Of a stretch of 64,000 nucleotides of DNA, positions 1 through 16,600 are shown piece by piece (positions within the stretch are counted from its first letter, which is position 1; each line of letters begins with the position of its first letter). A program made the position numbers and the translations under genes. The notes under the pieces are model-generated. The model did no database searches, was not told the origin of the DNA, and worked only from the letters and a program-made list of their open reading frames with translations. Source of the DNA: Sphingomonas japonica (GTDB lineage Bacteria > Pseudomonadota > Alphaproteobacteria > Sphingomonadales > Sphingomonadaceae); NCBI RefSeq assembly GCF_006346325.1, contig NZ_VDYR01000001.1, positions 1,736,001 to 1,800,000 on the forward strand. Reading direction: 5' to 3'.

Positions 1-135
1 TGGCGAGCTAAAAAGGATATTATAGCTAGCGTTCGAATTGAAGGGCGGATCAAGGTAGACAAGGTCGACACTCTCGTCACTGACATGCTCGCGCAGCACG
101 TCTAGATTGTCGCCATAAAAAAGCTGGTTGGTCAT
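1..135 (-). CDS. Site-specific DNA methyltransferase, N-terminal fragment (cut by window edge)
   Basis: The reverse strand from the ATG at 135 stays open to base 1 and encodes 45 residues beginning MTNQLFYGDNLDVLREH. It contains the motif DLVYLDPPFNS. The DPPF tetrapeptide is catalytic motif IV of amino-methyltransferases that modify adenine N6 or cytosine N4. The preceding YGDNLDVL resembles the start of the type III/beta-class enzymes, in which motif IV comes first. The rest of the gene is outside the window, so target specificity and any partner nuclease are unknown. It is transcribed away from the serine recombinase at 330 and belongs to the same putative island. The family call is firm; the subclass is inference. 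Confidence 0.85.
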   Translation of the reverse strand, partial: MTNQLFYGDNLDVLREHVSDESVDLVYLDPPFNSNASYNILFSSP

Positions 136-234
136 ACGCGTGAGAATGCCCGCGCTGGGTCAGCAGGTCTACCCCGAGGTTCGCCATTGCGCGGATCGCC
201 CTCGCTAGCTTTGCGTCACGAAACCGGTCGATTC

Positions 235-317
235 CGATACATGCAGTAAGACTGTATCGTAAATGAGCTTGACCGAATTAAGATACACCGCCAGTATCGA
301 TACACTGATTCGATACA
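235..317. repeat. Cluster of CGATACA / TGTATCG half-sites (candidate recombinase site or operator)
   Basis: CGATACA occurs at 235-241, 298-304 and 311-317, a shorter GATACA at 282-287, and the inverted form TGTATCG at 253-259. The stretch 294-303 is the palindrome GTATCGATAC. The 235 and 253 copies form a dyad with an 11-base spacer. All copies lie within about 95 bases of the start codon of the serine recombinase at 330. Resolvases commonly bind such subsites next to their own gene for recombination and autoregulation, so this is a candidate res site or operator. Function is inferred from position. Confidence 0.5.
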
Positions 318-329
318 AGGAAGCGCTCG

Positions 330-908
330 ATGGCTCGTACATTCGCGTATTGCCGCGTTAGCACTGCTGACCAGACAACAGACAATCAGGTTCGGGAAAT
401 CGTCAGCGCCGGTTTCAATGTCGATTCAAAGCGGATTGTTGTCGAAACGGTATCGGGGTCCGTCGCGGCGATGGAGCGGACTGGTTTCGCCAAGCTGGTT
501 GACCGGCTAGAGGCGGACGACGTCTTGATCGTTACGAAGCTGGACCGTCTGGGCCGAAACGCGATGGACGTTCGCGCGACGGTCGAGCGATTGGCAGCGG
601 ACGGCGTACGCGTCCATTGTCTGGCCCTTGGAGGGGTCGATCTGACAAGTGCGGCAGGAAAAATGACTATGGGCGTTATCGCCGCCGTCGCAGAGTTTGA
701 GCGCGACCTTTTGATCGAGCGAACTCACGCTGGGTTGAGGCGAGCGAAGGCGTCTGGGAAGGCGCTAGGAAGGCCTCAAAGGCTTAAGACCAGCGAACAG
801 CAGGAAATCATGGCAGCACGCGCGCGGGGCGCTTCCCTGGGCATACTAGCCAAACAGTACGGCGTTTCCCGCGCCGCTATTCAACGGGTTGAGAAGCGAG
901 CGGCCTAG
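330..908 (+). CDS. Serine recombinase, resolvase/invertase family
   Basis: This 192-residue protein has the resolvase layout. An N-terminal catalytic domain begins MARTFAYCRVST, where Ser11 is the expected nucleophile. It includes the motif TKLDRLGRNAMDV and the long-helix region IAAVAEFERDLLIERTHAGL. The C-terminal helix-turn-helix (about 155-190) contains ILAKQYGVSRAAIQRV. Length matches Hin/Tn3-resolvase-type small serine recombinases. AAGG about ten bases upstream of the ATG serves as ribosome-binding site. It would cut and rejoin DNA at paired sites, either resolving a transposition cointegrate or inverting a segment. The GATACA half-sites just upstream are the obvious candidate target. 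Which reaction it performs cannot be told from sequence. Confidence 0.93.
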   Translation: MARTFAYCRVSTADQTTDNQVREIVSAGFNVDSKRIVVETVSGSVAAMERTGFAKLVDRLEADDVLIVTKLDRLGRNAMDVRATVERLAADGVRVHCLALGGVDLTSAAGKMTMGVIAAVAEFERDLLIERTHAGLRRAKASGKALGRPQRLKTSEQQEIMAARARGASLGILAKQYGVSRAAIQRVEKRAA

Positions 909-938
909 CGCGCGAGGGCGTTGCCTGCGTAATCGATA

Positions 939-1127
939 TTATAGAGGCAGCACCATCTGGTTTGGATCGGCGGGCGCCGGGCTAGTCAGCGCCACATAAA
1001 CATGACGCGCCAGTTCACGTTGCCCATCCTCACGTAGACGGGGTGACGGAACGGTGAGCGCCAGTTTCGCCCAAGCTGGGGCGTTGTCGATCGCTAAAGC
1101 AATCAATTCGCGGGTGTCTGTCATCAT
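939..1127 (-). CDS. Small conserved-looking protein, 62 aa (possibly DUF6771)
   Basis: A 62-residue protein rich in Ala and Leu begins MMTDTRELIALAIDNAPAWA and includes LTVPSPRLREDGQREL. The pattern resembles small sphingomonad proteins annotated as DUF6771, but I recall this rather than having compared it. A clear GGGAG lies five bases before the first ATG and eight before the second, so either start is possible. No signal peptide or membrane segment is visible. It converges with the serine recombinase, with only 30 bases between the stops. Function is unknown. Confidence 0.65.
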   Translation of the reverse strand: MMTDTRELIALAIDNAPAWAKLALTVPSPRLREDGQRELARHVYVALTSPAPADPNQMVLPL

Positions 1128-1433
1128 CGAATCTCCCGCATTGCGCGCTAGAACATATGGGGAACACTGGGCAAGGGGGAAGAAGGGCTTATTTGCCGAA
1201 AGCGAGTATCGCTAGACAGTATTGATGCTCAATCATAAGGAATGAGCGTCGCTCCAACTTTGAACGGAAGGGGCGGCCCGCATATGGCGGCGAACACAGG
1301 CACTCGATCACATCGGTCGGGCGGCCTGCGGAATATAAAACCTTCGGGAAATACGCGGGAGGCGTGTTCCTGTGTTCGCGTCGTTCAACCGTCCCGACTG
1401 GCGGGATGGAGCGGTCGAATACAAGGAACTTTA
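1128..1433. other. Intergenic stretch with a long-range inverted repeat
   Basis: No gene is supported in these 306 bases. An exact 11-base inverted repeat, GCGAACACAGG at 1290-1300 and CCTGTGTTCGC at 1369-1379, flanks a 68-base spacer that includes an AT-rich box (GGAATATAAAACC). Short open frames here lack ribosome-binding sites and familiar sequence. The repeat could be a recombination or regulatory site. I see nothing else. Confidence 0.4.
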
Positions 1434-1796
1434 ATGCGCACTCTGCTTGCGGCGGCGATGGCCGTAACCTTTCCAACCTGTGCACTCGCGCAAACGTCTC
1501 CGTTGGCCGTGGCAGAAAAGGCCATGGCCACCCGGGATGCCTGCTTCAATGAAGCAACGAAAAGGGCAACTTTGAAGCAGGTAAGTCCGGAAACATTCAA
1601 GCTGGTGATCGAGGGCGCCTGCCAAGAAGAAGTGGCTGCTGCACGAGTCGCTTTTTCCGCAGCCTTAGATGCGTCCGTACCGTCTGGCCTTAGTTTCGAT
1701 GCGTTGCCCTCCAAGATTCCTTATATGCGTGATTTCGACGCCGCGCTGACTGAGTTGAAGGCGAAACTGATTAGCGATTTTGCTTTGAAGGACTAG
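1434..1796 (+). CDS. Hypothetical secreted protein, 120 aa
   Basis: The chosen ATG is preceded by AAGGA at suitable spacing and opens a good signal peptide, MRTLLAAAMAVTFPTCALAQ, with probable cleavage after ALA. A longer frame reaches upstream but adds sequence without signal character. The mature part (about 100 residues) is mostly helical-looking. It has two cysteines, in TRDACFNEA and IEGACQEEV, that could form a disulphide in the periplasm. No family is recognised. It lies between the 62-residue protein and the polymerase-like gene and is probably island cargo. Its function is not known. Confidence 0.7.
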   Translation: MRTLLAAAMAVTFPTCALAQTSPLAVAEKAMATRDACFNEATKRATLKQVSPETFKLVIEGACQEEVAAARVAFSAALDASVPSGLSFDALPSKIPYMRDFDAALTELKAKLISDFALKD

Positions 1797-1800
1797 ACAG

Positions 1801-1818
1801 GCAACAATACTTTGTTGC
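1801..1818. terminator. Short hairpin just after the secreted-protein gene
   Basis: GCAACAA (1801-1807), loop TACT, TTGTTGC (1812-1818) form a perfect seven-base stem starting four bases after the stop codon. There is no U-tract on the plus strand, so it is a weak terminator candidate or a 3'-end stabiliser. Confidence 0.4.
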
Positions 1819-1841
1819 GGCTCAGTCTCGCTTGCCCGGGT

Positions 1842-1886
1842 GGAGGGGCATATCTTAGACATTGTCGAAGACAATCTTACCCCTCC
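1842..1886. terminator. Compound hairpin between convergent genes
   Basis: Outer arms GGAGGGG (1842-1848) and CCCCTCC (1880-1886) pair perfectly. Inside them ATTGTC (1861-1866) and GACAAT (1870-1875) form a second stem around GAA. The structure sits between a plus-strand gene ending at 1796 and a minus-strand gene ending at 1969, so a bidirectional terminator is the simplest reading. It has no classical U-run. Confidence 0.5.
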
Positions 1887-1968
1887 TTACTGAGCTATGT
1901 CATCCCATCAACGTAAGCTCACACTTGAAGAATCTGTATATATTCTTCGCACTGGCGCGGGGAGCAAG

Positions 1969-3300
1969 CTAAGCCGCTAAACGGCGTATTTCGCCATATT
2001 CCTTAAGTTTTAGCTTAGGTTTGACTCCAATATGTCGCTCGAATTCGGCGGATAGCACGCGCATCGCGAGGCCGGATTTAGATACCGGCACAAGGATCGC
2101 ATCGTGAAGGGGAAGCGAGGGAATGGCGTGCTCGAAGGCGAGACTTTCTATCGTCGCGAGCACTACCTCGCTTTCAGCATAGTGCAGGTCGCCCCACGCG
2201 CAGCCGCTATCGCCCAAGTCCGCCAGGAGGGGAAACTTGTTCGTCACAGCCGTCCTTACCCGTCCTACCGGGTAGTTTTTCCGCACGTCAGGGATGGGTT
2301 GAACGTCCCGGCCCTGGGGGTTCTCCAGCTGGTCAACGACCTCTGACGGCCATCTGGAATGAACCTTCCCCAGTCCAAAAGCCGCATTGATATATGCTTT
2401 CGCGATAGCCCTAGGGGGCCATGCCATGGCGTACAGGTCAGCGACGCTGGTATCCAGCGGGCGGTGCATGAGGCTATGATAAATTGTAAGAAAGCTGGCG
2501 CCGATATCAACTTCAACGACCAGCTCGCCGTTGAAGCGGATATGCCGACGTCCCTTCTTTTTTCCGTTTTGGAACGGAGAGTAGATGCGTCCGCCAAAGC
2601 GCCCATACCTCTCTGGCTTGCCGTTGTCGCAATAGACGCGCTGGAGGGTCCAGCGTTTGATGCCAGTGACTGCCACGCCCGCCATGAAGGTGTTGAGTCG
2701 GTTGATCCTAGCTCCGCTTGAAACGATGTCGGGATGGCTGGTGTCGAGCTTCAACTTTGCGCCCCTATGCCGCCCCTTCGCATCCGTTCTCGAAGGAGCC
2801 CGCATGACTACAGGTTCCTTGATCGTGGCCGGGAGTGGAGCAGTGCCGAAATGCTCGCCCAGCCGGTCAAGTGCGATCCCGAACCGAAGTGCCAATGCGA
2901 TCAACTTACCAGTAGCGCGCATTCGCGTTGCGGTTCCGAAGCCACCTTCGCCTCCTTTTTTGCCGGGAAAGCTCTCGATGAAACCGTTGGCAACAAGGGC
3001 ATCAAATGCGTCCCTGAAAGCGCGATATCCGATGGGCTCATCAGCAAACGAGTTGCATCCTACAGAGCGATAACGAAAGGCTAAGGGGTTTTCTGCTGCG
3101 CATGCCAGAAGATCAGCGGTTAACGCTCCCGTAGCCCCCTTCAGTCGCTTCGAGGGAGATTTAATCCCTCCAACCTCCTTAACAACTAAATTAGACAATT
3201 CTTGAATTAAGTTAGAAGAAGATAAAGAATTACACATTCCTGTCAGGTCTAGATATTGCTCACTGTTAATATAAGGTTCTTTGAGTTTGTAGATTAGCAT
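1969..3300 (-). CDS. Uncharacterised protein with family-A polymerase-like palm motifs
   Basis: This 443-residue protein has no family name I can assign, but its second half carries an ordered set of motifs like those of PolA/T7-type polymerases. They are GGRIYSPFQN (about 236-245), GRRHIRF (250-256), a motif-A-like EVDIGASF with Asp265, a motif-B-like RAIAKAYINAAFG (Arg297, Lys301, Phe308-Gly309), and a motif-C-like LPLHDAILVP with His399-Asp400. No 3'-5' exonuclease domain is visible. The N-terminal 200 residues contain a helical, possibly winged-helix region. AGGA seven bases upstream supports the ATG. Codons in the first 60 residues are AT-rich. A replication protein for the island is a reasonable inference. 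Enzymatic activity is unproven, and motif B is one residue shorter than the usual spacing. Confidence 0.55.
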   Translation of the reverse strand: MLIYKLKEPYINSEQYLDLTGMCNSLSSSNLIQELSNLVVKEVGGIKSPSKRLKGATGALTADLLACAAENPLAFRYRSVGCNSFADEPIGYRAFRDAFDALVANGFIESFPGKKGGEGGFGTATRMRATGKLIALALRFGIALDRLGEHFGTAPLPATIKEPVVMRAPSRTDAKGRHRGAKLKLDTSHPDIVSSGARINRLNTFMAGVAVTGIKRWTLQRVYCDNGKPERYGRFGGRIYSPFQNGKKKGRRHIRFNGELVVEVDIGASFLTIYHSLMHRPLDTSVADLYAMAWPPRAIAKAYINAAFGLGKVHSRWPSEVVDQLENPQGRDVQPIPDVRKNYPVGRVRTAVTNKFPLLADLGDSGCAWGDLHYAESEVVLATIESLAFEHAIPSLPLHDAILVPVSKSGLAMRVLSAEFERHIGVKPKLKLKEYGEIRRLAA

Positions 3301-3343
3301 AATTGATTCCTATAGTTATATAGATATAGATATTGAAGGTATA

Positions 3344-3361
3344 GAATGGCTATCGCCATTC
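3344..3361. promoter_or_regulatory. Perfect dyad upstream of the polymerase-like gene
   Basis: GAATGGC, four-base spacer TATC, GCCATTC lies 44 bases upstream of the start codon of the minus-strand polymerase-like gene, next to an AT-rich stretch. Position and symmetry suggest an operator for a small regulator. No regulator gene is visible beside it. Confidence 0.4.
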
Positions 3362-3690
3362 CATACTTGTTACGTTTGACAATTTGGTACGTTACTGAAT
3401 TGCAGCTCAGCTGGACTTGGACGCTGAGTCTGCGCCTCAACGCCAAGAGCGGCAATTATGCAGCAGCTGGAAAGATGTTCAACCGTTCTTACTGGCTGTT
3501 AAGCCATGTTTATGTATGTTTAGGAATTGTGCCTAATTTCGATTTATTTGCCTAGGGAAGGCGTTAAAAAAGACTGCTCAATAAACATTGTTCAGAATAC
3601 TATGACACAATGCTAGAGGAGTATGGTCCGTTGGGAGCGGTCTATAAGGCTCCTGACGAACAAGGTCGTCAAGAAAAGCGCAAAGCTCAC

Positions 3691-3707
3691 GCTTCGACGT
3701 TCGAAGC
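3691..3707 (-). terminator. Hairpin downstream of the integrase gene
   Basis: GCTTCGA (3691-3697), CGT, TCGAAGC (3701-3707) form a perfect seven-base stem about 40 bases past the integrase stop codon on the minus strand. No U-tract follows, so termination is only a candidate role. Confidence 0.4.
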
Positions 3708-3746
3708 GCAGCAAAGCCGGTTCAGTTTCCGCGCTAGGTCGTTTGA

Positions 3747-5498
3747 TTATGTCGGCGCGGGCACAAGGTGCTCGAATGAGACACCCGCAAAAACAACGGC
3801 TTCAATCATGCTTGAAAGACGAGCGACGGTGCCTTGCCGCACCTGTCCATAACCGGCTGTTACTGACACTTGGTTGTGACCCAAGGCCACCTCGATCTCA
3901 TCATCTAGGTATCCGGCAGTGCGAAGCTGGTCCGCAAGTCCATGCCGAAACGAGTGCGATCCATACCCGTCGCGCCCGCTCTTGATCCCCAGCCGGATCA
4001 AGTAGGTTCGCCAAAATCGCGATGGAGTCCAGCTTATCTGCCCCCGCATATTTGGTTCTAGCTCGGGGAAGAGTCTGCCGTCGCCATCCTTTTCAGCCCG
4101 GGCACGCTGCCTTGCGACGTAGCTAAGCCAGCCTAGCTTTCGAAGCATGCTGTGGATCGGAGCGGGTCGACAATGCCCCGATTTCGTCCGTTGTCCGGTC
4201 GCCTCGTCATCCTTGATCCACAGGTAAGTTACTCCATCCTGCTCACGTACGTCATCTGCCCTTAGCTGAGCAATTTCGCCGATCCGGGCACCCGTGAATA
4301 GGCATACTAGGGGTATCCAATAGCGCCAGTCGTCAGCGCGACATGTACCGGGCTCCCACTCCTTACCGTCGCGCAGAAAGCCGGTGAAGAGAGGTGACGC
4401 GAGGATCGTGTTTAACTGCTCGGTAGTAAACGGCGGACGACGGTTCTTCCCGCTCTTCTTACCCTTCTGCAGGTCGTAAAATAGGCCATCGCAGGGATTG
4501 CGTTCGACGTAGCCTTCCTGTCGCGCCCAATCGAAAAGGGGCGACAATGTGCTAAGATACCTATTCACCGTATTAGCAGCCATCGGACTTGCCCCGGTGC
4601 GCTGCGCCTTTTCAGAAGCCTCCTGCAACGTGAGGCCAGCGTTTTCCTTACGCTTACGGAAAGCAGGGGGTAATGTGGTGATAAGATTGCGCCATTCCCG
4701 AACCTCCGCTTGCGTGATCGATGCAAGGCTCCGATGGGCGCCGACGAAGCCCGTAAAGAGTGAGATGACCTTCCGGCCCTGATCTACTGTATCTTGGCGC
4801 TGACGGCCTTCTGAGAGCCGCTGAGAGGCATATCGTTCGAACAGCTCGGAAATGCTTTGTCCCTGCCGTGCGCGGCTTTCCCGGCGCTTGCGTGCAGACT
4901 GCACAAATTGCGACGGCGCGAAATTACTCTCTGATCCATCTGCCAGAGCTTTAGCGAAGGCGAGCGTGTCCGAACCAGCCGCCGCCAAGTAGTCTACTAG
5001 TGTCGCAAAAGCAGGGTCCGTCTCGGCAAGCGTCCAGCCGCGTTCAATAACGAGTTTCCGTGCTCGTTCGATCCAGTAGCTATGGTCACCGGCTCGACGC
5101 CTTCGAACCGCCTCTCGATATCGACGCTCGAATTCCGGCGATAGCATCGCAAAGGCGGCTGGTCCTAGCTTCGCCTTTCTTGCGACAAGGTCCGCTGCAC
5201 GCACGCTCGCACGCTCAAAACCAACCTCCAACGCGATTTCTTCGAGTTCAAAGGCGTCTGGCACCGATGTCTCTTGCAGGGGCCCGACCGATGCAGATGC
5301 CAGCGCTACTGCAATTTGCGCTTTCCAGTCAGCAAGATGCGCGTGAGATAAGTCGACGGCGCGGCGGCGATCGGCAACGCCAAGCGACTTGGTAAACTCG
5401 TGCCGTCCTAGAATTGGGCGTGCAGCCTTTGGCACCATCAGCCGAAGCTGCCAGTGCTGCGAATTGTTGCGTTTGTGAAGGTGCGGGGCGGCGTTCAT
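3747..5498 (-). CDS. Tyrosine site-specific integrase with DUF6538-type N-terminus
   Basis: This 583-residue integrase probably mobilises the island. The N-terminus (HWQLRLMVPKAARPIL) matches the DUF6538 domain found at the start of many sphingomonad integrases. A core-binding domain follows (about 215-330). The catalytic domain contains FTGARIGEIAQL (first Arg), HSFRHGLADQL (His-x-x-Arg) and LGHNQVSVTAGYG, where the last Tyr is the expected nucleophile. All expected catalytic landmarks are present, so it looks functional. A strong GGAAGGGG ribosome-binding site precedes the ATG. It is the last gene before the chromosomal curli locus, the usual position for an integrase next to its attachment site. 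Confidence 0.93.
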   Translation of the reverse strand: MNAAPHLHKRNNSQHWQLRLMVPKAARPILGRHEFTKSLGVADRRRAVDLSHAHLADWKAQIAVALASASVGPLQETSVPDAFELEEIALEVGFERASVRAADLVARKAKLGPAAFAMLSPEFERRYREAVRRRRAGDHSYWIERARKLVIERGWTLAETDPAFATLVDYLAAAGSDTLAFAKALADGSESNFAPSQFVQSARKRRESRARQGQSISELFERYASQRLSEGRQRQDTVDQGRKVISLFTGFVGAHRSLASITQAEVREWRNLITTLPPAFRKRKENAGLTLQEASEKAQRTGASPMAANTVNRYLSTLSPLFDWARQEGYVERNPCDGLFYDLQKGKKSGKNRRPPFTTEQLNTILASPLFTGFLRDGKEWEPGTCRADDWRYWIPLVCLFTGARIGEIAQLRADDVREQDGVTYLWIKDDEATGQRTKSGHCRPAPIHSMLRKLGWLSYVARQRARAEKDGDGRLFPELEPNMRGQISWTPSRFWRTYLIRLGIKSGRDGYGSHSFRHGLADQLRTAGYLDDEIEVALGHNQVSVTAGYGQVRQGTVARLSSMIEAVVFAGVSFEHLVPAPT

Positions 5499-5656
5499 CG
5501 GGCGCCCCTTCCGGTTTGGTTACGTAGCATATGCGCGTAGCAATAGCCCAACACAGGGCCAACAAAAATGGCTTCTTTCCGTGCTATTAGCCACTTAGCG
5601 AGCATCTTACCGGACCTCCAAACTCATCCTCTCTTCCCGACCATTTCCAGCAACGG

Positions 5657-6025
5657 TCAGTCTTCGGTGCAGGCGCCGTCGTCGCTGGTGCAGCGAATCG
5701 TATAGGGCCGATCGTCGCCTTCGGTCGCGTCGAACCGCACTTGCCAGGGCGCCTGATCCGCGAAACGCACGACTGACAGCGTCTGGCTTTCTGGCCCGAC
5801 CGCGCTGCGTCCGGCATGGCGGGTCGTCGACCGGCCCGACACGTCGATGGTGTAGTGGACGGCCAGACGCTGGGCGCTGCGGCCGGTCAGCGTGATGACG
5901 ACCTGTCCCGCACGGCGCGAAACATCGAGCGAGAGGGCGTGCGGCGATTTGGGCATGGCAGTTCCAGACACGGCTAGCGTTGCGGCGATGCCGATGAGCC
6001 CGAGCTGAAGGCGGCGCGCGGTCAT
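5657..6025 (-). CDS. csgH: CsgH-like periplasmic curli chaperone
   Basis: A 122-residue secreted protein with an N-terminal signal (MTARRLQLGLIGIAATLAVSG) and a small beta-sandwich-like body (LSLDVSRRAGQVVITLTGRS, then YTIDVSGRS, then APWQVRFDATEG). It ends with a Cys pair (IRCTSDDGAC). Size, position as last gene of the curli operon and strand pattern match CsgH, the alphaproteobacterial counterpart of CsgC. That family inhibits premature amyloid formation by curlin subunits in the periplasm. Its start overlaps the stop of the upstream gene by four bases, implying translational coupling. The assignment is by context and pattern, since this family is poorly conserved. Confidence 0.75.
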   Translation of the reverse strand: MTARRLQLGLIGIAATLAVSGTAMPKSPHALSLDVSRRAGQVVITLTGRSAQRLAVHYTIDVSGRSTTRHAGRSAVGPESQTLSVVRFADQAPWQVRFDATEGDDRPYTIRCTSDDGACTED

Positions 6026-6558
6026 TTGTCGCTCGGCGGCGTCGATGGCGGCGGCGGCGGCACCGGGATCAGATCGGAATCGACGCCGAACATGTTTGCG
6101 GCGGCCGGAAAGTCCGACAGGAAGCGGGCCAGATTTTCTGGTCCGATCTCCCGCGCGATCAAATCCGGAGTCGGTTGCTGGCCGCGCTTGCGGATCATTT
6201 CCCAGACTGCGGCGACCTCTTCGTAAAGGTTCAGACGCGGCGATCGCGGCAGACCCTCCGCCAGCGCCTGTTCCGGGCTTTCCGCAGACGGTGCGACTTC
6301 GGCATCTGGCGGCAGTTGCAGTATCTCGGTCGATGCTCGATTGTTCGGACGGATCTGCTGGACGGTGCCTGGAGGAGGTTTTGGGGCCGCGGGAGCTGCC
6401 GTCGGCGCGATCTGTTCCGCAGTGGTCCGGTCACTGCCGGCGGAGGGCGTCCCGGACACGGTCTGCGCCGCTGCCGAAACCGCGCAGAAGCCGAGCGTCG
6501 CAAGCGCCACGCTTCGCAGTATCGCCGGAGCCGGTCGATATTCCATACCCGTCTTCAT
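6022..6558 (-). CDS. Proline-rich secreted protein of the curli operon, 178 aa
   Basis: The protein has an export signal (about residues 1-31, ending SAAAQ) and a low-complexity region rich in Ala and Pro. A helical segment follows (about 108-160: NLYEEVAAVWEMIRKRG, then ARFLSDFPAAANMFG), and the tail is a run of prolines. I do not recognise a family. It overlaps the curlin-like gene before it and csgH after it by four bases each (ATGA), so it is made together with them. A role in curlin handling or anchoring is inferred only from this context. An alternative start is the Met five codons in. Confidence 0.7.
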   Translation of the reverse strand: MKTGMEYRPAPAILRSVALATLGFCAVSAAAQTVSGTPSAGSDRTTAEQIAPTAAPAAPKPPPGTVQQIRPNNRASTEILQLPPDAEVAPSAESPEQALAEGLPRSPRLNLYEEVAAVWEMIRKRGQQPTPDLIAREIGPENLARFLSDFPAAANMFGVDSDLIPVPPPPPSTPPSDK

Positions 6559-7178
6559 GGTCCCATCTGGGTGATGGCGACGCTGGCGCCGCCGAACTGG
6601 GTGATGGCGAGGACCAAGGCCGTGCCCGACTGGGTCAGGGCCGCGGTGTTGGCATCGCCATTCTGCACGAGATCGAGCAGGTTGCCCGAGCCATATTGCG
6701 CCAGCGACGCGACATTGTCGCTGCCGAACTGGCTTACCCGGATTTCATTGGCGGCGCCGCTTGCGGCAATCTGTTCGATCGCGGCCTGATTGGCGGACCC
6801 GTCCTGCGTCACCAGCGCGATATTCTCGCCCCCCGCCAAACCGCTCTGCATGCTGTCGAGGCTGTTTCCGAACCCTGTGATCGATCCCGTCAGCGTGGCG
6901 GTCGCGGCACCGGCCTGCCCCGCCGTGAGCGCGAGGTCTGAGCCGACGAGTTCCGCCTGCAGCATCTTGTCCGGCCCCGATTGTTCGACATGCGCCGTGG
7001 TGTTCGAACCGATCTGGCCGATCGTGGCGCGGCTGTCGGTGGCGCCCTGCTGATCCACCACCGCCACATTGCCACTGCCGTTCTGGGCGATTTCAGTGAG
7101 TGATTGCGCTGCGCTAGGAACTGCCAAGGTGATGCCGAATACGGCACAGCAGCATCGCTCGAATTTGGTGCGCACCAT
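6555..7178 (-). CDS. Curlin-like repeat protein (second, CsgB-like subunit)
   Basis: A 207-residue secreted protein whose start is fixed by GGAGG five bases upstream. The frame extends 19 codons further but without a ribosome-binding site. The signal peptide MVRTKFERCCCAVFGITLAV ends before SAAQS. The mature part consists of curlin strand repeats of the type Q-x-G-x-x-N-x-A-x-x-x-Q, for example IAQNGSGNVAVVDQQG and LAQYGSGNLLDLVQNGDANT. Repeats are less regular than in the larger curlin upstream. Being smaller and following the major curlin gene, it may be the nucleator (CsgB role), though this is inference. It sits 61 bases downstream of the large curlin gene. Confidence 0.85.
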   Translation of the reverse strand: MVRTKFERCCCAVFGITLAVPSAAQSLTEIAQNGSGNVAVVDQQGATDSRATIGQIGSNTTAHVEQSGPDKMLQAELVGSDLALTAGQAGAATATLTGSITGFGNSLDSMQSGLAGGENIALVTQDGSANQAAIEQIAASGAANEIRVSQFGSDNVASLAQYGSGNLLDLVQNGDANTAALTQSGTALVLAITQFGGASVAITQMGP

Positions 7179-7239
7179 CGCAGCCTCCGCATCGCAAGAA
7201 GAAAGTCCGGGAACGCCGAAGCGCTCCCGGACCAAGGCG

Positions 7240-8589
7240 TTACTGGCTTACGGTAGCCGTGTTGAACGACCCCGACTGCGTCACGAACGACATGTTGCCG
7301 TCGGTGAACTGCTGGACCGTCGCGGTGTTGTTGTTGCCGCTCTGATCGACGTCGGACATGTTGCCGTCGCCATACTGACCGACGAACGCGTAGTTGAACG
7401 ATCCGGTCTGCAGGATGTCCGACAGATTGCCGTCGCCCGACTGATCGTTGACGGCATAATGGTTGTCGCCATCCTGGTCGATCACCGATCCGTTGTTGTC
7501 ACCGGTCTGATAGATCGCGGCGGACATGTTCTCGGTCGGCGGGCTGTCTTCCTGCTGAGTGATGCTGGCGGTATTGTTGCTGCCAGTCTGATAGGCGAAC
7601 GCGTCGCTGTCCTCGGCGCGCTGGGTGATCGTGGCGCTGTTGTTGTCACCAGCCAGCTGCCAGACATAGGCGACCGAGCGGTTGCCGTAGTTCTGGACCA
7701 GCGCATCGCTGTTGGTGCCCCACTGGAGCACTTCGGCATAGCCCTGATTGGCGCGCTGGAACACCTGCGAGTCGTTGCTGTCGCCCGCCTGATCGACGTA
7801 CACCTGCGAGTTGATCGGGCGCACACCGCCGGGCGAGGTCTGATCGACCAGGCTGGTATTCCCGTTCCCGGACTGGTTGACGTCCGCGGTGACGTCCTCG
7901 CCGTCCTGGATCACGTCGGACAGGTTGCCGTCGCCGCTTTGATCGACGAACGCGTCATCATTGGTGCCGGTCTGCGCGACGCTCGAGCTGTTGAATGCGC
8001 CGCTCTGGTTGACATAGGCTTCGCCGGCATCTCCGGTCTGATCGACCGAACTGTCGTTGAGCAAGCCCGGCTGATTGACCTGCGCGATATGGCCGCCCGA
8101 GCCTGCCTGATTGATCGTGCTGGAGTTGCCCCAGCTATCGTCCGACAGCGCGGCGGTAGCATCGCCTTGGTTGACTGTTGCCGAGTTGCCGTCGCTCGAC
8201 TGGCTGACGCTCGAGGTCTGGCCGTCATCGAGTTGGGTGACACTGGCGGTGTTGCCGTTTCCGGACTGGTCGATCAGCGAGTTGCTCTGCAGCGCAAAGG
8301 TGCTCGTATCCTGATTGACCGTCGCCGAGTTGCTGTCGCCGGACTGGAGCACGTCCGACACGTTCTGCGGCGTCGCGCCGCTGCCATCGTCGGCCTGGGT
8401 GACGGTGGCAGTGTTGCTTGCGCCGCTCTGATCGACCAGCGAGTCGCCGCCCGACAGCGATCCGGTCTGGTCGACCGTCGCACCGTTGCCGGTATTGGTC
8501 TGATTGACCACGCTGATCGACTGCGCGAACGCAGGCGCTGCAAACGACAGGGCCAGCACCGAGGCTGCGCCAAGAAGTACGTTCTTCAT
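7240..8589 (-). CDS. Very long acidic curlin (CsgA-like major amyloid subunit)
   Basis: A 449-residue secreted curlin. A GGGAG upstream and the signal MKNVLLGAASVLALSFAAPA with cleavage near AFAQ fix the start. The frame runs 71 codons further upstream without signal character. The mature part is almost entirely curlin-type units of about 11 residues (SDVDQSGNNNTATVQQ, FVTQSGSFNTATVSQ), roughly three dozen of them. E. coli CsgA has five 22-residue repeats in 151 residues. Composition is dominated by Asp, Ser, Asn, Gln, Gly and Thr, with very few Lys or Arg, so the fibre would be strongly acidic. It would be exported through CsgG to form extracellular amyloid in biofilm. Codon repetition leaves a long open frame on the opposite strand, which is not a gene. 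Confidence 0.9.
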   Translation of the reverse strand: MKNVLLGAASVLALSFAAPAFAQSISVVNQTNTGNGATVDQTGSLSGGDSLVDQSGASNTATVTQADDGSGATPQNVSDVLQSGDSNSATVNQDTSTFALQSNSLIDQSGNGNTASVTQLDDGQTSSVSQSSDGNSATVNQGDATAALSDDSWGNSSTINQAGSGGHIAQVNQPGLLNDSSVDQTGDAGEAYVNQSGAFNSSSVAQTGTNDDAFVDQSGDGNLSDVIQDGEDVTADVNQSGNGNTSLVDQTSPGGVRPINSQVYVDQAGDSNDSQVFQRANQGYAEVLQWGTNSDALVQNYGNRSVAYVWQLAGDNNSATITQRAEDSDAFAYQTGSNNTASITQQEDSPPTENMSAAIYQTGDNNGSVIDQDGDNHYAVNDQSGDGNLSDILQTGSFNYAFVGQYGDGNMSDVDQSGNNNTATVQQFTDGNMSFVTQSGSFNTATVSQ

Positions 8590-8939
8590 TTCTATTCTCC
8601 CATTCGATGCGGGGACGGCAGGATCGCCGCCCCCGGGTCGGTCGCGGGAATGCCCCCGCTCTGTACCGCCGGACGATATTCGAACGGCGCGGCCGGCCCC
8701 GCGCCAATCGACGGGAAAAAGAGATCGGAGACAGGAACCCGGCGGTGGGCCTTGGGGGTGCGGCCACCGGATCCACTTGCGCAGGACGGCCCGGAAGCGC
8801 ATCCTGTAGGGGTGAGCATGTCTCGCAATCCGGCTCGGGTCCCGTACCCTTGCCGATCGGGCCCATCAGCGGCATGACTCCAATCGTGGCCGCTGGTGGG
8901 TTCGCCTGCGTCCGGCCAGGCCGGGCGCGTATCGCTGCA
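8590..8939. other. Intergenic region between csgG and the large curlin gene
   Basis: 350 bases without a supported gene. A hairpin with arms GGCGCGG (8686-8692) and CCGCGCC (8699-8705) lies about 100 bases before the curlin start codon. It may end csgFG transcription or be a leader structure of the curlin messenger. I could not pick out a convincing promoter. Overlapping short frames look like composition artefacts. Confidence 0.4.
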
Positions 8940-10040
8940 TCATCCTCCTTTCGCGGACGCCGGCGACGCCGTGCGCTGGGGCTGAACGGAAACCTGGGGC
9001 GCCGGACCGAGTAGCGGCGGCACGGTCAATGTCGGAGCGGCGGGCTGCGGCCGCGTCGCTTGGACCGGCGCAGCAGCAGGCGCACGGACTGCGACCCTGG
9101 GACGCGGCTGCGCAGCCATGCGCGGCGGGCATGCGCCGCTTACCAGGGTTCCATCGACCTGATGGGCCAGCGCCACGCTCGACTCGGCTATATTGTCGCG
9201 CTGCGCATAATAGCTGCGCAGCATCGCTTCGCTCGCGGCCGGGGTGCTCGACAAACACCACAGCCCCATCGATGCGCCTTCCAGCACCAGGCCATAGACG
9301 GCGGCTTCGATCGCCTGCTGCAGCGCCAGCGCGTCGGGCTCGTTGAAGGCGACGCCCGCCTCGAGTTCGAGCAGGTCCTTGAACGCGACATAGCGGAACG
9401 AATTGGCGTCCACCCCGATCGAGGCGATCGACTTGCGGACGCTGACATTGGTCAGCACCTCGCCGGTCTTGACGCTGACCGCGCGCAGATAGACCGTCAC
9501 CGTATCCTCGCGATACTGCGTCGACGCGCCGATGCCGAGGAATCGTGCGCCCAGCCCGCCCGACTTGGTATTCGCGTCATAGCCGATGATTCCGCCCTCC
9601 AGCAGGATCCCGGCGAACAACAGGGGCGGCAGCGCCTGGGGATTGAGCGTCTTTTCGCCGAGATAGGAGGAGCGCATGTCGCGGATCACGGCGCGCTCGC
9701 GCAGCAGGTTGTCGAGTCGCTCGCGCTCGATCACCGTGAACCAGCGGCGATTGCCCGCCGCCTGCAGCGCCTTGACGAGGATCGAGGTCGCGCCTTGCGT
9801 CACCGCGCGAGACAGCGTCTGGACGCCGTCGGTCGGCTTGAACTGTCCGGTCTGGTCGGTGAAATTATAGACGGCGACGGCGATCAGGTCGCCCGCGGGG
9901 GGCAATTGCTGCAACGTCGAGGTCATCGGCGTCGGCCGCGTCGCCTGCGCCTGTGACCAGCTTGCCTCGTTATGCGCCGCGCAGGCACCTAGCGACAGCG
10001 CCGCCATCCCCGCCCCCGCGCGCCTCGCCCACGGCGTCAT
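8940..10040 (-). CDS. csgG: Curli secretion channel lipoprotein CsgG
   Basis: A 366-residue lipoprotein that forms the outer-membrane pore for curlin export. The signal peptide ends in the lipobox LGAC (MTPWARRAGAGMAALSLGAC). Characteristic CsgG stretches include IAVAVYNFTDQTGQFK, FTVIERERLDNLLRERA, LLFAGILLEGGIIGYDANTK and DTVTVYLRAVSVKTGEVL. E. coli CsgG has 277 residues. This one carries an extra Pro/Ala-rich tail of about 60 residues after VSGACPPRMA, possibly in the periplasm. The start lies two bases after the csgF stop. A longer frame upstream overlaps csgF and is rejected. Confidence 0.95.
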   Translation of the reverse strand: MTPWARRAGAGMAALSLGACAAHNEASWSQAQATRPTPMTSTLQQLPPAGDLIAVAVYNFTDQTGQFKPTDGVQTLSRAVTQGATSILVKALQAAGNRRWFTVIERERLDNLLRERAVIRDMRSSYLGEKTLNPQALPPLLFAGILLEGGIIGYDANTKSGGLGARFLGIGASTQYREDTVTVYLRAVSVKTGEVLTNVSVRKSIASIGVDANSFRYVAFKDLLELEAGVAFNEPDALALQQAIEAAVYGLVLEGASMGLWCLSSTPAASEAMLRSYYAQRDNIAESSVALAHQVDGTLVSGACPPRMAAQPRPRVAVRAPAAAPVQATRPQPAAPTLTVPPLLGPAPQVSVQPQRTASPASAKGG

Positions 10041-10042
10041 GG

Positions 10043-10501
10043 CTAGAGCCCGAGCCCGAGGGAGCTGCCGTCCTGCAGCAGCGGGACGACGATCTCCGTG
10101 ACGGTCCCATCGGCATTGTTGGTGATCGTCAGCGTCACCGAATCGATCCCGCGGACGAACGAAATCTCCTGGTCGCCGAACTGGATCAGTCCGCTGTCCT
10201 GCGCATTCTCGCCAAAGATGATCTCGTTGATCTGAGTCGCCAGCGACGACAGCAGCCGGCTTTGCAGCGTGCGGAGGAACTGCGATCCGGGATCGGCCGA
10301 GCTGATCGCGGTCGGGTCCTTGTACTTGCTTTGCGCCGAAGCGATGCCGAGCAGGTGCGCTGAATTGAAGGGATTGCCGCCGAACGAGGGATTGATCGGC
10401 GTGTAGACGATGTCCGACGCAAGGCTCGGCGCAGGTACCGACAGTGTTCCCACCAACGATATCGCCGCAAGCGATTGTACCCAAGGTTTGAAAGTAAACA
10501 T
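10043..10501 (-). CDS. csgF: Curli assembly protein CsgF
   Basis: A 152-residue secreted protein with GGAGG before the ATG and a signal peptide ending near PSLASD. The mature N-terminus, IVYTPINPSFGGNPFNSAHL, is the conserved CsgF region that plugs into the CsgG channel and couples it to the nucleator at the cell surface. The C-terminus ends with a beta-rich segment (SVTLTITNNADGTVTEIVVP). It is the first gene of the csgF-csgG unit and faces the divergent sensor-kinase gene across a 375-base regulatory region. csgE, which normally sits beside csgF, is not present here. Confidence 0.95.
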   Translation of the reverse strand: MFTFKPWVQSLAAISLVGTLSVPAPSLASDIVYTPINPSFGGNPFNSAHLLGIASAQSKYKDPTAISSADPGSQFLRTLQSRLLSSLATQINEIIFGENAQDSGLIQFGDQEISFVRGIDSVTLTITNNADGTVTEIVVPLLQDGSSLGLGL

Positions 10502-10642
10502 CCGGCCCTCCCCGAGTGCAGATCGATCAGCGCTCCACCAGGAATCGCGAGGGCGATCCCGAGCGAAAATGCCAATGCCCAAGTCTGTTTTCACAAACTC
10601 GATTCAGTCATGTCGATGCGACCAGGAAGTGGCTCAATGCGC

Positions 10643-10666
10643 TCAAGACATCTACACTTGTCTTGA
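10643..10666. promoter_or_regulatory. Operator-like dyad upstream of csgF
   Basis: TCAAGACA, eight-base spacer, TGTCTTGA form a perfect eight-base inverted repeat 142 bases before the csgF start. Size and symmetry suit a dimeric helix-turn-helix regulator, such as the LuxR/FixJ-type response regulator encoded nearby. Binding is inference. Confidence 0.5.
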
Positions 10667-10760
10667 CGAAACCACTGTTGATACCGCCGAGCGCTGTCCT
10701 CTCTGTTGGAGGCGACTCGATCGCTACTGGAGATGTGCTACAATCGATCGGTGAGATCGA

Positions 10761-10782
10761 CCATCCGTAACGATACGGATGG
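10761..10782. promoter_or_regulatory. Dyad/stem-loop upstream of the sensor kinase
   Basis: CCATCCGTA (10761-10769), ACGA, TACGGATGG (10774-10782) are perfectly complementary. The dyad lies 94 bases before the kinase start. It could be an operator for autoregulation or a hairpin in the leader transcript. Confidence 0.5.
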
Positions 10783-10876
10783 TATTTGACCGACCACCGG
10801 GTGTAGGACGGTCGCACAGAAGGCACCCGGCGAGGGGCCCGTTTGCGTCGCGCTCGATTCAGGGGGATGCCAAACG

Positions 10877-12790
10877 ATGCCCAGCGACTATCTGTCCCGA
10901 CCGATATCGCTCCACTGGCTCAGGATGCCGGCTGGAGATTCATTGGGCCATTGGCGTCAGTCCCTGCACGCCAAGCCCTATGTTGGCGCGATGTGCGCGG
11001 TAGCGGTTGCTACCGCGCTGCGCGGACTGGTCGAGCCCATCCTCGACCATCGCATGCCGTACACCCTTTATCTGCCGGCGATCATCGTCGCGGCGGCGTT
11101 CTGCGGCGCTGGTCCTGCAATATTCGCGGTACTGGCCAGCGCGACGATCGCCATCGTCACGTTCCAGCCGTTCGTGCCCGATGCGATTCATTTCACCGCG
11201 CTGGGCGTGTTTCTTGCGACGTCCGGCGGGATCATCGCGCTGACCGGGCGGCTGGTGCTGTGGCGAGACACCGCGCTACGCGAACACGCCCTAGCCGATC
11301 GCCGAACCGTCGAGGCGCGCATGCTCGCCGAAGAAATGTCGCTGCTGGTCGATGCCGCTGCCGACCATGCGATCTACTTTCTGGATACCGATGGGCACGT
11401 CAGCCTGTGGAGCCCGAACGCGATGCGGATCAGCGGCTGGACGCAGAGCGAAGCGATCGGAAGAGGCTTCGATCTGTTCTATTGCGCGGACGATCGCGCC
11501 GCGGGAGTGCCCCAACGCGCCCTCGCCGAAGCGCGTGCGCACGGAAAGCTGCGCAGCCGCGGCCGGCGCTGCCGCAAGGATGGCAGTAGCTTCATTGCCG
11601 ACGTCACGCTGACCGCGCTGTATGATGACGACGGCCGGCTGCGCGGCTTCGGCAAGGTGATGCGCGACGTCACCGAAGAGGCGACGGCCGCGCACGAAAT
11701 AGAGATCCGCGAACGCCAGTTGAGTTCGATTCTCGCGACCGCGCCCGAAGCGACCGTGGTGACCGATTGCGACGGCCGGATCACCGCGTTCAATCACGCG
11801 GCGCAGGCGCTGTTCGGCTATGACCGGGCCGACATCATCGGTTGCGAGGACAAGATCCTGTCGCTGGAACTCGCCGCCCTGCCGGACGAGCCCGCCCGGT
11901 TCGATCGGCTCGCCGTGGCGACACCGCATCGCGGGCGCGCACGCCGCGCGGACGGCACGCTGGTGCCTGTCGAAGTAACGGTCGGGCGCGCCGCGATCGG
12001 CGACAAGCCGCTGTTCACCGCCTTCATCCGCGACCTGTCCGACGAAATCGCGACGCGCAACCGGCTCGACAAGGTCCAGTCGCAATTGCTGCATCTGTCT
12101 CGCATCAACGCGATGGGCACGATGGCATCGACCCTGGCGCACGAACTGAACCAGCCGCTGACCGCGGCCGAAAGCTATGTCGGCGCCGCGCGCTCGATGC
12201 TGGCGACGGGGGGTGCCGAAAAGACCGATCAAGCGTCGCGCGCGCTGGAGGCAGCCTCGGCACAGGTGCTGCGCGCAGGCTCGATCATCCGGCGGACGCG
12301 CGAGATGCTGGCACAGCGCGACACCAGCTATGTCCACGAAGATCTGGAGGAACTGGTCCGCGACGCCGCGGCGCTGGCGTTACTTGGCATCCGGGACAGC
12401 GGCATCGCCACCGACATCCGCATTGCGCCGAATATCGGTACGGTGCTGGTCGATCGCGTCCAGATCCAGCAGGTCATCCACAATTTGCTGCGCAACGCGA
12501 TCGACGCAGTCCAGCATTGCCCGGTGCGGACGATCCGTCTGGCAGTCACGGGCGGTGATCCCGATTTCGCGACCGTCACGGTGAGCGACACCGGCATCGG
12601 CCTGACCGAGGATGAGCATCTTCGCCTGTTCACCGCATTCTACAGCACCAAGAAGAGCGGAATGGGGGTCGGCCTGTCGATCTGTCGCACGATCGTCGAG
12701 GCGCATGGCGGGCGGATCTGGGCATCACGGCGGGAGGGCGGCGGGGCAGAGTTCCGCTTCACCCTCCGCCGCACCGATTGGGGGCAGTGA
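10877..12790 (+). CDS. FixL-like membrane PAS sensor histidine kinase
   Basis: A 637-residue kinase. Residues about 35-130 form several membrane helices like a DUF4118/MASE-type sensor. Two PAS domains follow (about 152-270 and 280-390), then the dimerisation helix with MASTLAHELNQPL (phospho-acceptor His422). The ATPase domain has N540 in NLLRNAID, DTGIG at 571-575 and GMGVGLSI at 595-602. The H-box is of the FixL/DctB type. The second PAS lacks an evident haem-ligand His at the place seen in rhizobial FixL, so oxygen sensing should not be assumed. It is one base from the response-regulator gene and divergent from csgF. Control of curli genes is inference. Confidence 0.93.
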   Translation: MPSDYLSRPISLHWLRMPAGDSLGHWRQSLHAKPYVGAMCAVAVATALRGLVEPILDHRMPYTLYLPAIIVAAAFCGAGPAIFAVLASATIAIVTFQPFVPDAIHFTALGVFLATSGGIIALTGRLVLWRDTALREHALADRRTVEARMLAEEMSLLVDAAADHAIYFLDTDGHVSLWSPNAMRISGWTQSEAIGRGFDLFYCADDRAAGVPQRALAEARAHGKLRSRGRRCRKDGSSFIADVTLTALYDDDGRLRGFGKVMRDVTEEATAAHEIEIRERQLSSILATAPEATVVTDCDGRITAFNHAAQALFGYDRADIIGCEDKILSLELAALPDEPARFDRLAVATPHRGRARRADGTLVPVEVTVGRAAIGDKPLFTAFIRDLSDEIATRNRLDKVQSQLLHLSRINAMGTMASTLAHELNQPLTAAESYVGAARSMLATGGAEKTDQASRALEAASAQVLRAGSIIRRTREMLAQRDTSYVHEDLEELVRDAAALALLGIRDSGIATDIRIAPNIGTVLVDRVQIQQVIHNLLRNAIDAVQHCPVRTIRLAVTGGDPDFATVTVSDTGIGLTEDEHLRLFTAFYSTKKSGMGVGLSICRTIVEAHGGRIWASRREGGGAEFRFTLRRTDWGQ

Positions 12791-13670: not shown

Positions 13671-16600
13671 ATGGCACAGCAATATTTCGCGCTCGCAGCG
13701 GGCGATCTCCTGCAGGATTGGTCGGATACCGGGCTGCTCTCGGCGGATGACTGGAGCCGGGTGCCCAGCATCGTCGGCTATCGCGGCGACGGGCTGACCA
13801 GCGGCACCGGCGTCGATCCCCGCACCGTGCTGGGGTCGAGCGACGTCGTCGATGTCAACGTCAACCTTGCCAATCCCGACAGCTACACCACGGGCGGCGT
13901 CGCCGAGTTCGACGGCATCGCCAATCCTGTCGTCGCGCTGCAGGGTTCGGGTACCGCCCGCGCGCCGTATCTGGTGATCCACCTCGACACCACCGGGCGC
14001 GAGGACGTGGTGTTCGGGGCGCTGCTGCGCGACATCGACGCGGGCACCAGCGCGGTCCAGCCGGTCGCGATCCAGTACCGCGTCGGCGAAACCGGCGACT
14101 GGATCAATATCGATGGCGGTTATGTCGCCAATGCCAATATCGGCAGCGATACGCCGGTCAGCGTGACGCTTCCCGCCGACGCCAACGACCAGGCGCAGGT
14201 GCAGGTCCGCGTCCTCACCACCGATGCGGTCGGATCGGACGCATTCATCGGTGTCGATGACATCACAGTCACCAGCGCGCCGATCGCGGCGGCCGAGCCG
14301 GTGTTGCCGTGGATCAACGAATTCCATTACGACAATGACGGCGCCGATGCCGGCGAGGCGGTCGAGATTGCCGGGACCGCGGGCACCGACCTGACCGGCT
14401 GGTCGCTGGTGCTCTACAATGGTTCGAACAACGCGCCCTATGGCACGATCGCCTTGTCGGGCGTCATCGCCGATCAGGCCGATGGATACGGCACGCTGTC
14501 GTTCGCGGCAGTCGGGCTGCAGAACGGATCGCCCGACGGCTTCGCGCTGGTCGATGCCGGCGGCGCGGTCGTCCAGTTCCTGTCGTATGAAGGCACGATC
14601 ACCGCCGCGAGCGGCGCGGCGGCCGGTCTGACCAGCACCGATGTCGGCGTGGCCGAAGCAGCGTCCTCGCCGCTCGGCTTCTCGCTGCAGCTCAAGGGCA
14701 GCGGCGCGAGCTATGGCGATTTCACCTGGGCCGAGGCCAGCGACGACAGTTTCGGCGACGTCAATGACAGCCAGAGCTTTGGCGACGGCCCGCCTCCGCC
14801 AGTCGCCGGCGCGCTGTCGGTCGCCGATGCGTCGGTCGTCGAGGGCGACAGCGGCACCGCGGACCTGGTGTTCACGGTGACGCGCAGCGGTGGCAGCACC
14901 GGCGCGGTTTCGGCAACTTGGACCGTCACACTCGGCAGCGCGAGCGCAGGCGATCTTGCGACCTCAACGCTGACCGGCACGGTGAACTTCGCCGACGGCG
15001 CGACCAGCGCGACGATCGTCGTACCGGTACTGGGCGACACCGACGTCGAAGGTGACGAAGACCTCACGCTCACCCTGTCGAACGCCACCGGCGGCGCGAC
15101 GATCGCCGATGGCGAGGCGACCGGAACCATCGTCAACGACGATGCCGGCACTCCACCGCCTGCGGGCAGCGTGTTCATCAACGAAATCCATTACGATGAC
15201 GAATCGACTGACACCGGCGAGGGCATCGAGGTCGCCGGGCTTGCCGGTACCGACCTGACCGGCTGGTCGCTGGTGCTCTACAATGGCAATGGCGGTGCCA
15301 GCTATGGCACGATCGCGCTGTCGGGCGTGATCGCCGATCAGTCTAACGGCTATGGCACCGTGGCGGTCCCCGCGGTCGGCCTTCAGAACGGGTCGCCGGA
15401 CGGCATCGCGCTGATCGATGCCAGCGGCAACGTCGTCCAGTTCCTGTCGTACGAAGGCACGATGGTTGCCAGCAACGGCCCCGCCGCCGGCCTGACCAGC
15501 ACCGATATCGGCGTCGCGGAGGAACCCGCCCCGGGCGACGGCTTCTCGCTCCAGCTCAAGGGTGTCGGCGCCACCGCCGCAGACTTCGTGTGGACCGCAC
15601 CGAGCGACGACAGCTTCGGCGACGTCAATGACGGCCAGAGCTTCATCGCCCCCGACGGCACCGGCCAGATATCGATCCGCGACGCGCAGTTCGACGAAGG
15701 TGATGCCGGTACCACCGATTTCAGCTTCGTCGTCCGCCGCGCCGGCGGCAGCGCCAGCGAGGCGTCGGTAGACTATACCGTCACGCTCGACGGCAGCGCC
15801 GACGCTGCCGACTTCGGACCGGACGCCGCGTTCACCGGGACGGTGACCTTTGGCGCGGGTCAGAGCGAAGCGACGATCACCCTGCCCGTCGCCGGCGACC
15901 TGGTCGGCGAGTCCAATGAGACGTTCAGCGTCACGTTGTTGAACCCGAAGGGCGACATCGTCATTGCCGATGCCGACGCAATCGGCACCATCCTCAACGA
16001 CGATCTGGTGACGCTGGCGATCGGGACGATCCAGGGGCTCGGCCATGTTTCCGACTATGTCGGCCAGACGGTGCACACGAGCGGCATCGTCACGGCGGTC
16101 GATTCGAACGGCTATTATCTGCAGGATGCAGTCGGCGACGGTGACGCGGCGACATCGGACGGCATCTTCGTGTTCACCGGATCAGCCCCGACCGTTACGG
16201 TCGGCGATGCGCTAGAGGTAACCGGCAACGTCTCGGAGTTCCAGGGCGGACCGGCGGGCCTGTCGGTCACGCAGATCGACACCGCGACCGCCACCGTGGT
16301 CAGCAGCGGCAACGCGCTGCCGACCGCAGTCGTGATCGGCCAAGGCGGCGTCCTGCCGCCGAGCATGGTGATCGACGACGATGGCCTCACCAGCTACGAT
16401 CCAAGCAGCGACGGCATCGATTTCTACGAATCGCTCGAAGGCATGCTGGTGACGATCGACGCGCCGATGGCGGTCGCCAGCACCAATAATTTCGGCGAGA
16501 CGTTCGTGGTCGCGTCGGGCGGCGAGGGTGCGACCGGCGTCAACGATCGCGGCGGCATCACGCTGTCGCCGGGCGACTATAATCCGGAAAAGATCCAGAT

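Follow-up and report, generated by a model that had tools for sequence, protein, structure and literature searches.

A TV-Pol-like family-A polymerase in a tRNA-Pro island of Sphingomonas japonica and its proposed role as a primase-polymerase

TV-Pol, described in 2008 by Iyer, Abhiman and Aravind, comprises exonuclease-less family-A polymerases of mobile elements, globular proteins of 400-600 residues encoded near resolvases and integrases (PMC2579912). Their traits are an absolutely conserved Arg ahead of the palm, two palm Asp residues, an Asp together with an RxxxK motif in the fingers and a thumb made of a two-helix coiled coil; a subset has an extra N-terminal domain, lies beside gamma-delta resolvase, lambda-type integrase or transposase genes and for the most part occupies integration hot spots that also carry restriction-modification operons. 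TV-Pol neighborhoods include the D5 helicase, alphaproteobacterial members are named and a primase-polymerase function was proposed (PMC2579912). CCPol of SCCmec, counted as a TV-Pol, has polymerase activity but primes DNA synthesis only with its partner MP (PMC7581432, PMC10061031), and according to the 2020 CCPol paper no other TV-Pol member had, to its authors' knowledge, been biochemically characterized (PMC7581432). Here we consider a gene at positions 1969-3300 of a 64-kb stretch of the Sphingomonas japonica genome (contig NZ_VDYR01000001.1, positions 1,736,001 to 1,800,000; hereafter the window, the whole stretch that was analyzed), which a preliminary description made from the letters alone had offered as a possible undescribed polymerase. 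Its 443-residue product has, as sequence comparison and structure prediction support well, a family-A-type polymerase fold with its catalytic residues, and the gene sits in a 10.4-kb integrative island inserted at tRNA-Pro. The features of the gene are as follows.

1969..3300, minus strand: TV-Pol-like family-A polymerase by sequence comparison and predicted structure, 443 aa, ATG start
2821..3300, minus strand: residues 1-160, an N-terminal domain that is probably a winged helix (helix 92-104, strands 108-117 and 120-129)
2587..2589, minus strand: R238, invariant Arg ahead of the palm (85/85 sequences; model strand 238-240)
2506..2508, minus strand: D265, predicted metal-binding Asp of motif A (85/85; within model strand 259-267)
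2398..2412, minus strand: R297xxxK301, motif B, on the predicted fingers helix (85/85; model helix 297-310)
2101..2106, minus strand: H399-D400, motif C (85/85; turn preceding model strand 401-405)

The motifs from which a polymerase had been suspected are all present and in order, namely GGRIYSPFQN (residues 236-245), GRRHIRF (250-256), EVDIGASF (263-270, with D265), RAIAKAYINAAFG (297-309, with R297 and K301) and LPLHD (396-400, with H399-D400). In the predicted structure we find, as anticipated, a PolA/T7 RNA polymerase-type palm and also fingers of that type, with motifs A, B and C following one another as expected, and the top Foldseek matches of the model are DNA polymerases. Residues 1-160 are modeled as winged-helix-like with a long beta hairpin, a reading for which the supporting matches are weak. 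The earlier statement that an exonuclease domain is missing holds as well, the protein having 443 residues, no Pfam domain found and an N-terminal region modeled as just described. An AEP primase was also considered, and the structure searches gave no evidence for an AEP fold; a degraded Pol I was set aside too, the genome having an open 947-aa frame for Pol I at another place (C1:2043001-2044143).

Conservation was gauged in three alignments. The protein search listed 14 sequences, P0001 being a fragment of the window protein itself, and the window protein with P0002-P0014 forms the 14-sequence alignment A1. When genome contigs were scanned, 117 stretches were confirmed, of which the best 80 were kept and yielded 79 loci, and 87 profile-matching open reading frames (ORFs) were taken from these loci and one viral contig (89 rows minus two that are copies of the window gene itself); 71 of them, sized 380-620 aa, were combined with the window protein and P0002-P0014 into an alignment of 85 rows, the other 16 being outside this range, fragments or fusions (e.g. 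L025, 1046 aa). Alignment A2 holds 63 sequences, the window's included. The residues whose invariance had been put forward as a check, D265, K301, H399 and D400, are conserved without exception, as is R297, in all 14 rows of A1; in the 85 rows R238, R251, D265, Y290, R297, K301, H399 and D400 are invariant, with D288 kept in 83, R221 in 82 and N203 in 81, and residue 376 is Glu in 81 and Asp in 4. The motif set is beyond chance because the catalytic candidates are invariant (14/14 and 85/85) while mean column identity in A2 is only 22%.

In Pol I the Gly of motif B follows the Lys at K+9. The spacing here had been noted as one residue short, leaving room for chance similarity; the spacing is real and recurs, with Gly at residue 309 (K+8) in 52/85 rows, and by sequence profile motif B is out of register, but chance is contradicted by the invariance and the structural match.

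Sequence databases returned little. The window protein has no match in Pfam or, by sequence, in the PDB up to an E-value of 10, and a single meaningless row in NCBIfam (E 0.12); at the same E-value limit the A2 profile gave 17 PDB rows, among them no polymerase, the best being cullin-1 at 0.07, and none of the 63 A2 members matches Pfam DNA_pol_A. PHROG family phrog_4756, listed with 'unknown function', is matched by the window protein at 5.2e-8 and by 63/63 A2 members, at best with 2.4e-50. The phage collection gave no match when searched with the window protein, a plasmid search with it one record, and viral contigs one locus out of 37 pattern matches. Four phage homologues, from Aeromonas phage 4L372D, ICP1_2006_B, Rheinheimera Barba9A and Vibrio phage eugene 12A10, score 5.8e-50 to 3.3e-34 against the family profile (only those four were searched); these proteins of 434-505 aa match phrog_4756 at 6.4e-65 to 3.2e-163 and none has a Pfam match over the curated cut-off. 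All four keep R238, R251, D265, D288, Y290, R297, K301, H399 and D400, the catalytic candidates thus included, while R221 and G237 are among the positions that vary. The phages differ from the island in that no integrase or resolvase is annotated in the four stretches, 8 kb to each side. Their homologues are annotated as hypothetical (L173:7326-8813 in ICP1_2006_B; likewise in L172, L174 and L175), and the Barba9A genome also carries an annotated primase and DNA polymerase.

Comparison with the published TV-Pol traits places the protein close to that group. The two palm Asp residues correspond to D265 and D400 (85/85), the fingers Asp to D288 (83/85) and RxxxK to R297 and K301 (85/85); a fused nuclease domain is lacking in both, and an invariant Arg precedes the palm. 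The TV-Pol Arg lies on a beta hairpin, and either R238 (85/85, on the short strand 238-240) or R251 (85/85) could correspond to it. At the position of the thumb, two antiparallel coiled-coil helices in TV-Pol, the model has one long helix, 190-207, and whereas the TV-Pol N-terminal domain was predicted to be all-helical (PMC2579912), the model here shows a winged helix bearing a long beta hairpin. Roseovarius nubinhibens, included in the TV-Pol alignment of PMC2579912, has one profile match in its genome, at 4.3e-147, the matched sequence being one of the A2 rows. The structural resemblance of virophage proteins to the window protein is weak (4.6e-3 for Qinghai Lake, 2.0e-2 for Zamilon). Against a close tie to phage Ma-LMM01, a TV-Pol member listed in PMC2579912, counts that the family profile has no match in it. 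Because the profile does not reach it we regard membership as likely rather than proved: the protein likely belongs to TV-Pol or lies very near. The gene is most likely a member of this known kind and is not of an undescribed one, such exonuclease-less polymerases having been reported in 2008, and the idea that 443 residues is much smaller than known family-A polymerases gives way to the 400-600 residues described for TV-Pol (PMC2579912).

The gene had also been placed on an island beside an integrase, and an integrative element is borne out by the integrase next door, by island ends at tRNA-Pro and by enclosing repeats at related loci (below). The gene for tRNA-Pro(cgg) was located by ARAGORN at C1:1731165-1731241, left of the window, and the two copies of a repeat of its 3' end lie 10,402 bases apart, the left one at C1:1731224-1731247, 4.8 kb left of the window. 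The other features of the island in the window are these.

5626..5649, plus strand: right island end, exact 24-bp repeat of the tRNA-Pro 3' end plus 6 further bases
3747..5498, minus strand: tyrosine integrase, 583 aa (Pfam Phage_integrase 5.2e-13; PHROG phrog_1 6.5e-37)
330..908, plus strand: serine resolvase, 192 aa (Pfam Resolvase 9.8e-36)
939..1127, minus strand: DUF6771 small protein, 62 aa (Pfam PF20561 2.2e-17)
1242..1796, plus strand: ORF of 184 aa in the island, no significant family match
1..135, minus strand: 5' end of a gene for an N6/N4 DNA methyltransferase with an Mrr-like domain, island cargo, the rest lying left of the window

By profiles, the 64-kb window has one resolvase and one integrase, both within the island. 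The G+C content, in 1-kb steps, is 0.47-0.58 across positions 1-5000 and 0.585-0.716 from 6001 onward. The methyltransferase gene extends over L082:12546-14135 (L082 coordinate = window + 14000), and further left of the window a pair of DprA-like and phosphoribosyltransferase-like proteins (L082:9459-10939) matches the defense models ShosA (6.6e-67) and ShosT (3.8e-13), with a PLD-like protein also among the cargo near the pair and the methyltransferase. A Walker A motif is lacking from all of the island's listed ORFs above 200 aa, and there is no helicase candidate among them; Pfam scans that covered the island proteins plus six small ORFs gave no match to AlpA, Fis, D5 or DUF3987/DUF5906, the other small ORFs being judged by eye; and no convincing origin-like repeats were seen beside the polymerase. 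A first search with the tRNA flank returned mainly tRNA matches; with the right flank an empty site was not found in 200 other genomes of the genus, the flank matching its own genome alone. The DUF6771 protein sits between the resolvase and the 184-aa ORF, whose product is possibly secreted, the signal having been judged by eye. Just beyond the island (5657-10594, minus strand) lies a cluster in which ORFs resemble curli subunits, with a Q-x-G-x-x-N-like motif in repeats, alongside one for a CsgG-like protein, again by eye from the translations.

Related islands were examined at 81 loci, the 79 from genome contigs, the one on a viral contig and our own. A tRNA is present in 51 and a repeat of its 3' part encloses the polymerase in 32, our own included, involving 12 kinds of tRNA and repeats from 16 nt up to the longest length tried, 40 nt; the L023 repeat consists of an entire second tRNA. 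In a similar control, with 1500 random 75-nt segments drawn at 20 per locus from 75 loci of at least 10 kb, 11 had such a repeat and 7 had one that encloses the polymerase, and some of these may be real ends. The 32 islands measure 6,688-16,352 bases (median 10,762). With profiles built from gene clusters of the same loci, a resolvase is seen in 43, an integrase in 39, both in 34 and neither in 3 of the 51 loci that extend 8 kb or more to each side, a neighborhood shared with TV-Pol and, for both genes, with the window island; over all 81 loci, many of them clipped by contig ends, the numbers are 58, 52, 41 and 12. In 10 of the 32 islands, chosen for large cargo genes, we inspected the largest ORF besides polymerase and integrase, and 7 of the 10 have a PADLOC match at 1e-10 or better (AriAB, PtuA, type III and type I restriction, IIG/DrmMI, PDC-M33A and LmuA, partial length). 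The polymerase occurs in 24/201 genomes of a Sphingomonas sample, its own included, and in 24/398 of a phylum sample, 23 of them in its own class, the class composition of that sample not being stated.

An unassigned same-strand gene of 209-289 aa accompanies the polymerase in 16/81 loci (11 in cluster c2 and 5 in c8, perhaps one family), at most 150 bases away or overlapping in 15 and 1,960 bases off in L053. Three representatives had no Pfam match at 0.1, and we consider it a candidate polymerase partner; examples are L068:8480-9229, L018:9093-9794 and L048:2662-3291, and by eye two of the proteins have a CxxxxC-like start. Several polymerase genes are split into separate ORFs (L021, L023, L026, L045, L055) and one, G007:C205, is reported with two in-frame TAG codons, which would fit decaying islands, or assembly errors. 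A Microvirga genome (L015) has two polymerase genes, at 9818-11176 (plus) and 16466-17893 (minus), and two tRNA-Leu genes, and is perhaps a case of tandem islands; it was scored on the better-scoring copy and counted as a miss, the other copy lying between the two tRNA-Leu genes. The relative P0006 has a precomputed transposase helix-turn-helix (PF01527, HTH_Tnp_1), which may come from an insertion or from a fusion at its start.

The island can be set beside several described elements. The CCPol-MP/PolA-SSB systems of SCCmec and Bacillota islands likewise have a family-A polymerase in an integrative island (PMC7581432, PMC10061031), but they include an OB-fold partner (with one exception in the published table) and a COG3378/DUF927 helicase, neither of which is recognized in the window island. 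Pipolins are also integrative elements marked by a primer-independent DNA polymerase (PMC9710591), yet theirs, piPolB, is of family B (PMC10061031), confining the resemblance to life style. PICMI and P4-like satellites are small integrated islands with an integrase, a primase and variable defense genes (PMC10803314, PMC9122126); they differ in AlpA, Fis and DUF3987/DUF5906, unmatched in the scanned proteins of an island that is without packaging evidence. Search listings of the open-license literature gave no later account of tRNA-bounded TV-Pol islands with defense cargo.

Fold, invariant catalytic set, linkage to integrase and resolvase and island ends are supported by comparison and prediction; that the N-terminal domain binds an origin, and that the protein primes and copies the island, we infer. 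We consider it probable that a TV-Pol-type family-A polymerase with a winged-helix-like N-terminus copies the excised tRNA-targeting island as a primase-polymerase. The integrase would excise the island at tRNA-Pro, the N-terminal domain would bind island DNA, and the polymerase would start or extend strands on the excised circle, using the host helicase and other host factors, its action keeping or multiplying the island, with the serine resolvase separating dimers. By analogy with known family-A enzymes, catalysis would be a two-metal reaction on D265 and D400, with R297 and K301 handling the incoming nucleotide.

Priming is the step on which a rival account turns, that of a polymerase unable to prime, for gap filling or second-strand synthesis in integration, excision or single-stranded entry. 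CCPol without MP extends primers and does not prime (PMC10061031), and neither an MP-like partner gene beside the polymerase nor a helicase candidate in the island was recognized, all of which favors this account; yet the winged-helix-like domain, with its weak matches, could provide DNA binding, and the 209-289-aa neighbor stands within 150 bases or overlapping in 15 of its 16 loci, and we think such a role unlikely. An active polymerase with a protective job, acting on incoming or damaged DNA or in anti-phage defense for island and host, has real precedent (PMC7693054) and is in keeping with the PADLOC matches of 7/10 islands chosen for large cargo genes and with the ShosA/ShosT-like proteins and methyltransferase of the window island. 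However, the polymerase travels with recombinases, at least one in 48/51 well-flanked loci, while the cargo varies from island to island, and it matches no PADLOC model itself, making a protective job, in our judgment, rather unlikely too.

An RNA polymerase or RNA-only primase, functionally closer to the T7-like RNA polymerases, we hold to be very improbable; DNA polymerases lead the Foldseek matches and CCPol uses dNTPs (PMC7581432). Hardly credible, finally, is a chance similarity or a catalytically dead relative: the lack of Pfam and PDB matches by sequence speaks for it, but a catalytic set that is invariant at 22% mean column identity, and the structural match, speak against it.

A likely function also follows for phrog_4756, with its protein from the cholera phage ICP1, and the family could be renamed to match. 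We also raise, quite tentatively and as a doubtful generalization, a widespread class of small tRNA-targeted, defense-carrying islands (6.7-16.4 kb, n=32), mainly in Alphaproteobacteria, that would lack their own helicase and replicate by one protein alone, in which a family-A primase-polymerase is joined to a winged-helix origin binder, and some of which may be phage satellites. A compact, confidently modeled protein with an invariant catalytic set and candidate island ends makes the primase-polymerase proposal of 2008 directly testable, and the cargo suggests that some alphaproteobacterial defense genes may travel on such islands.
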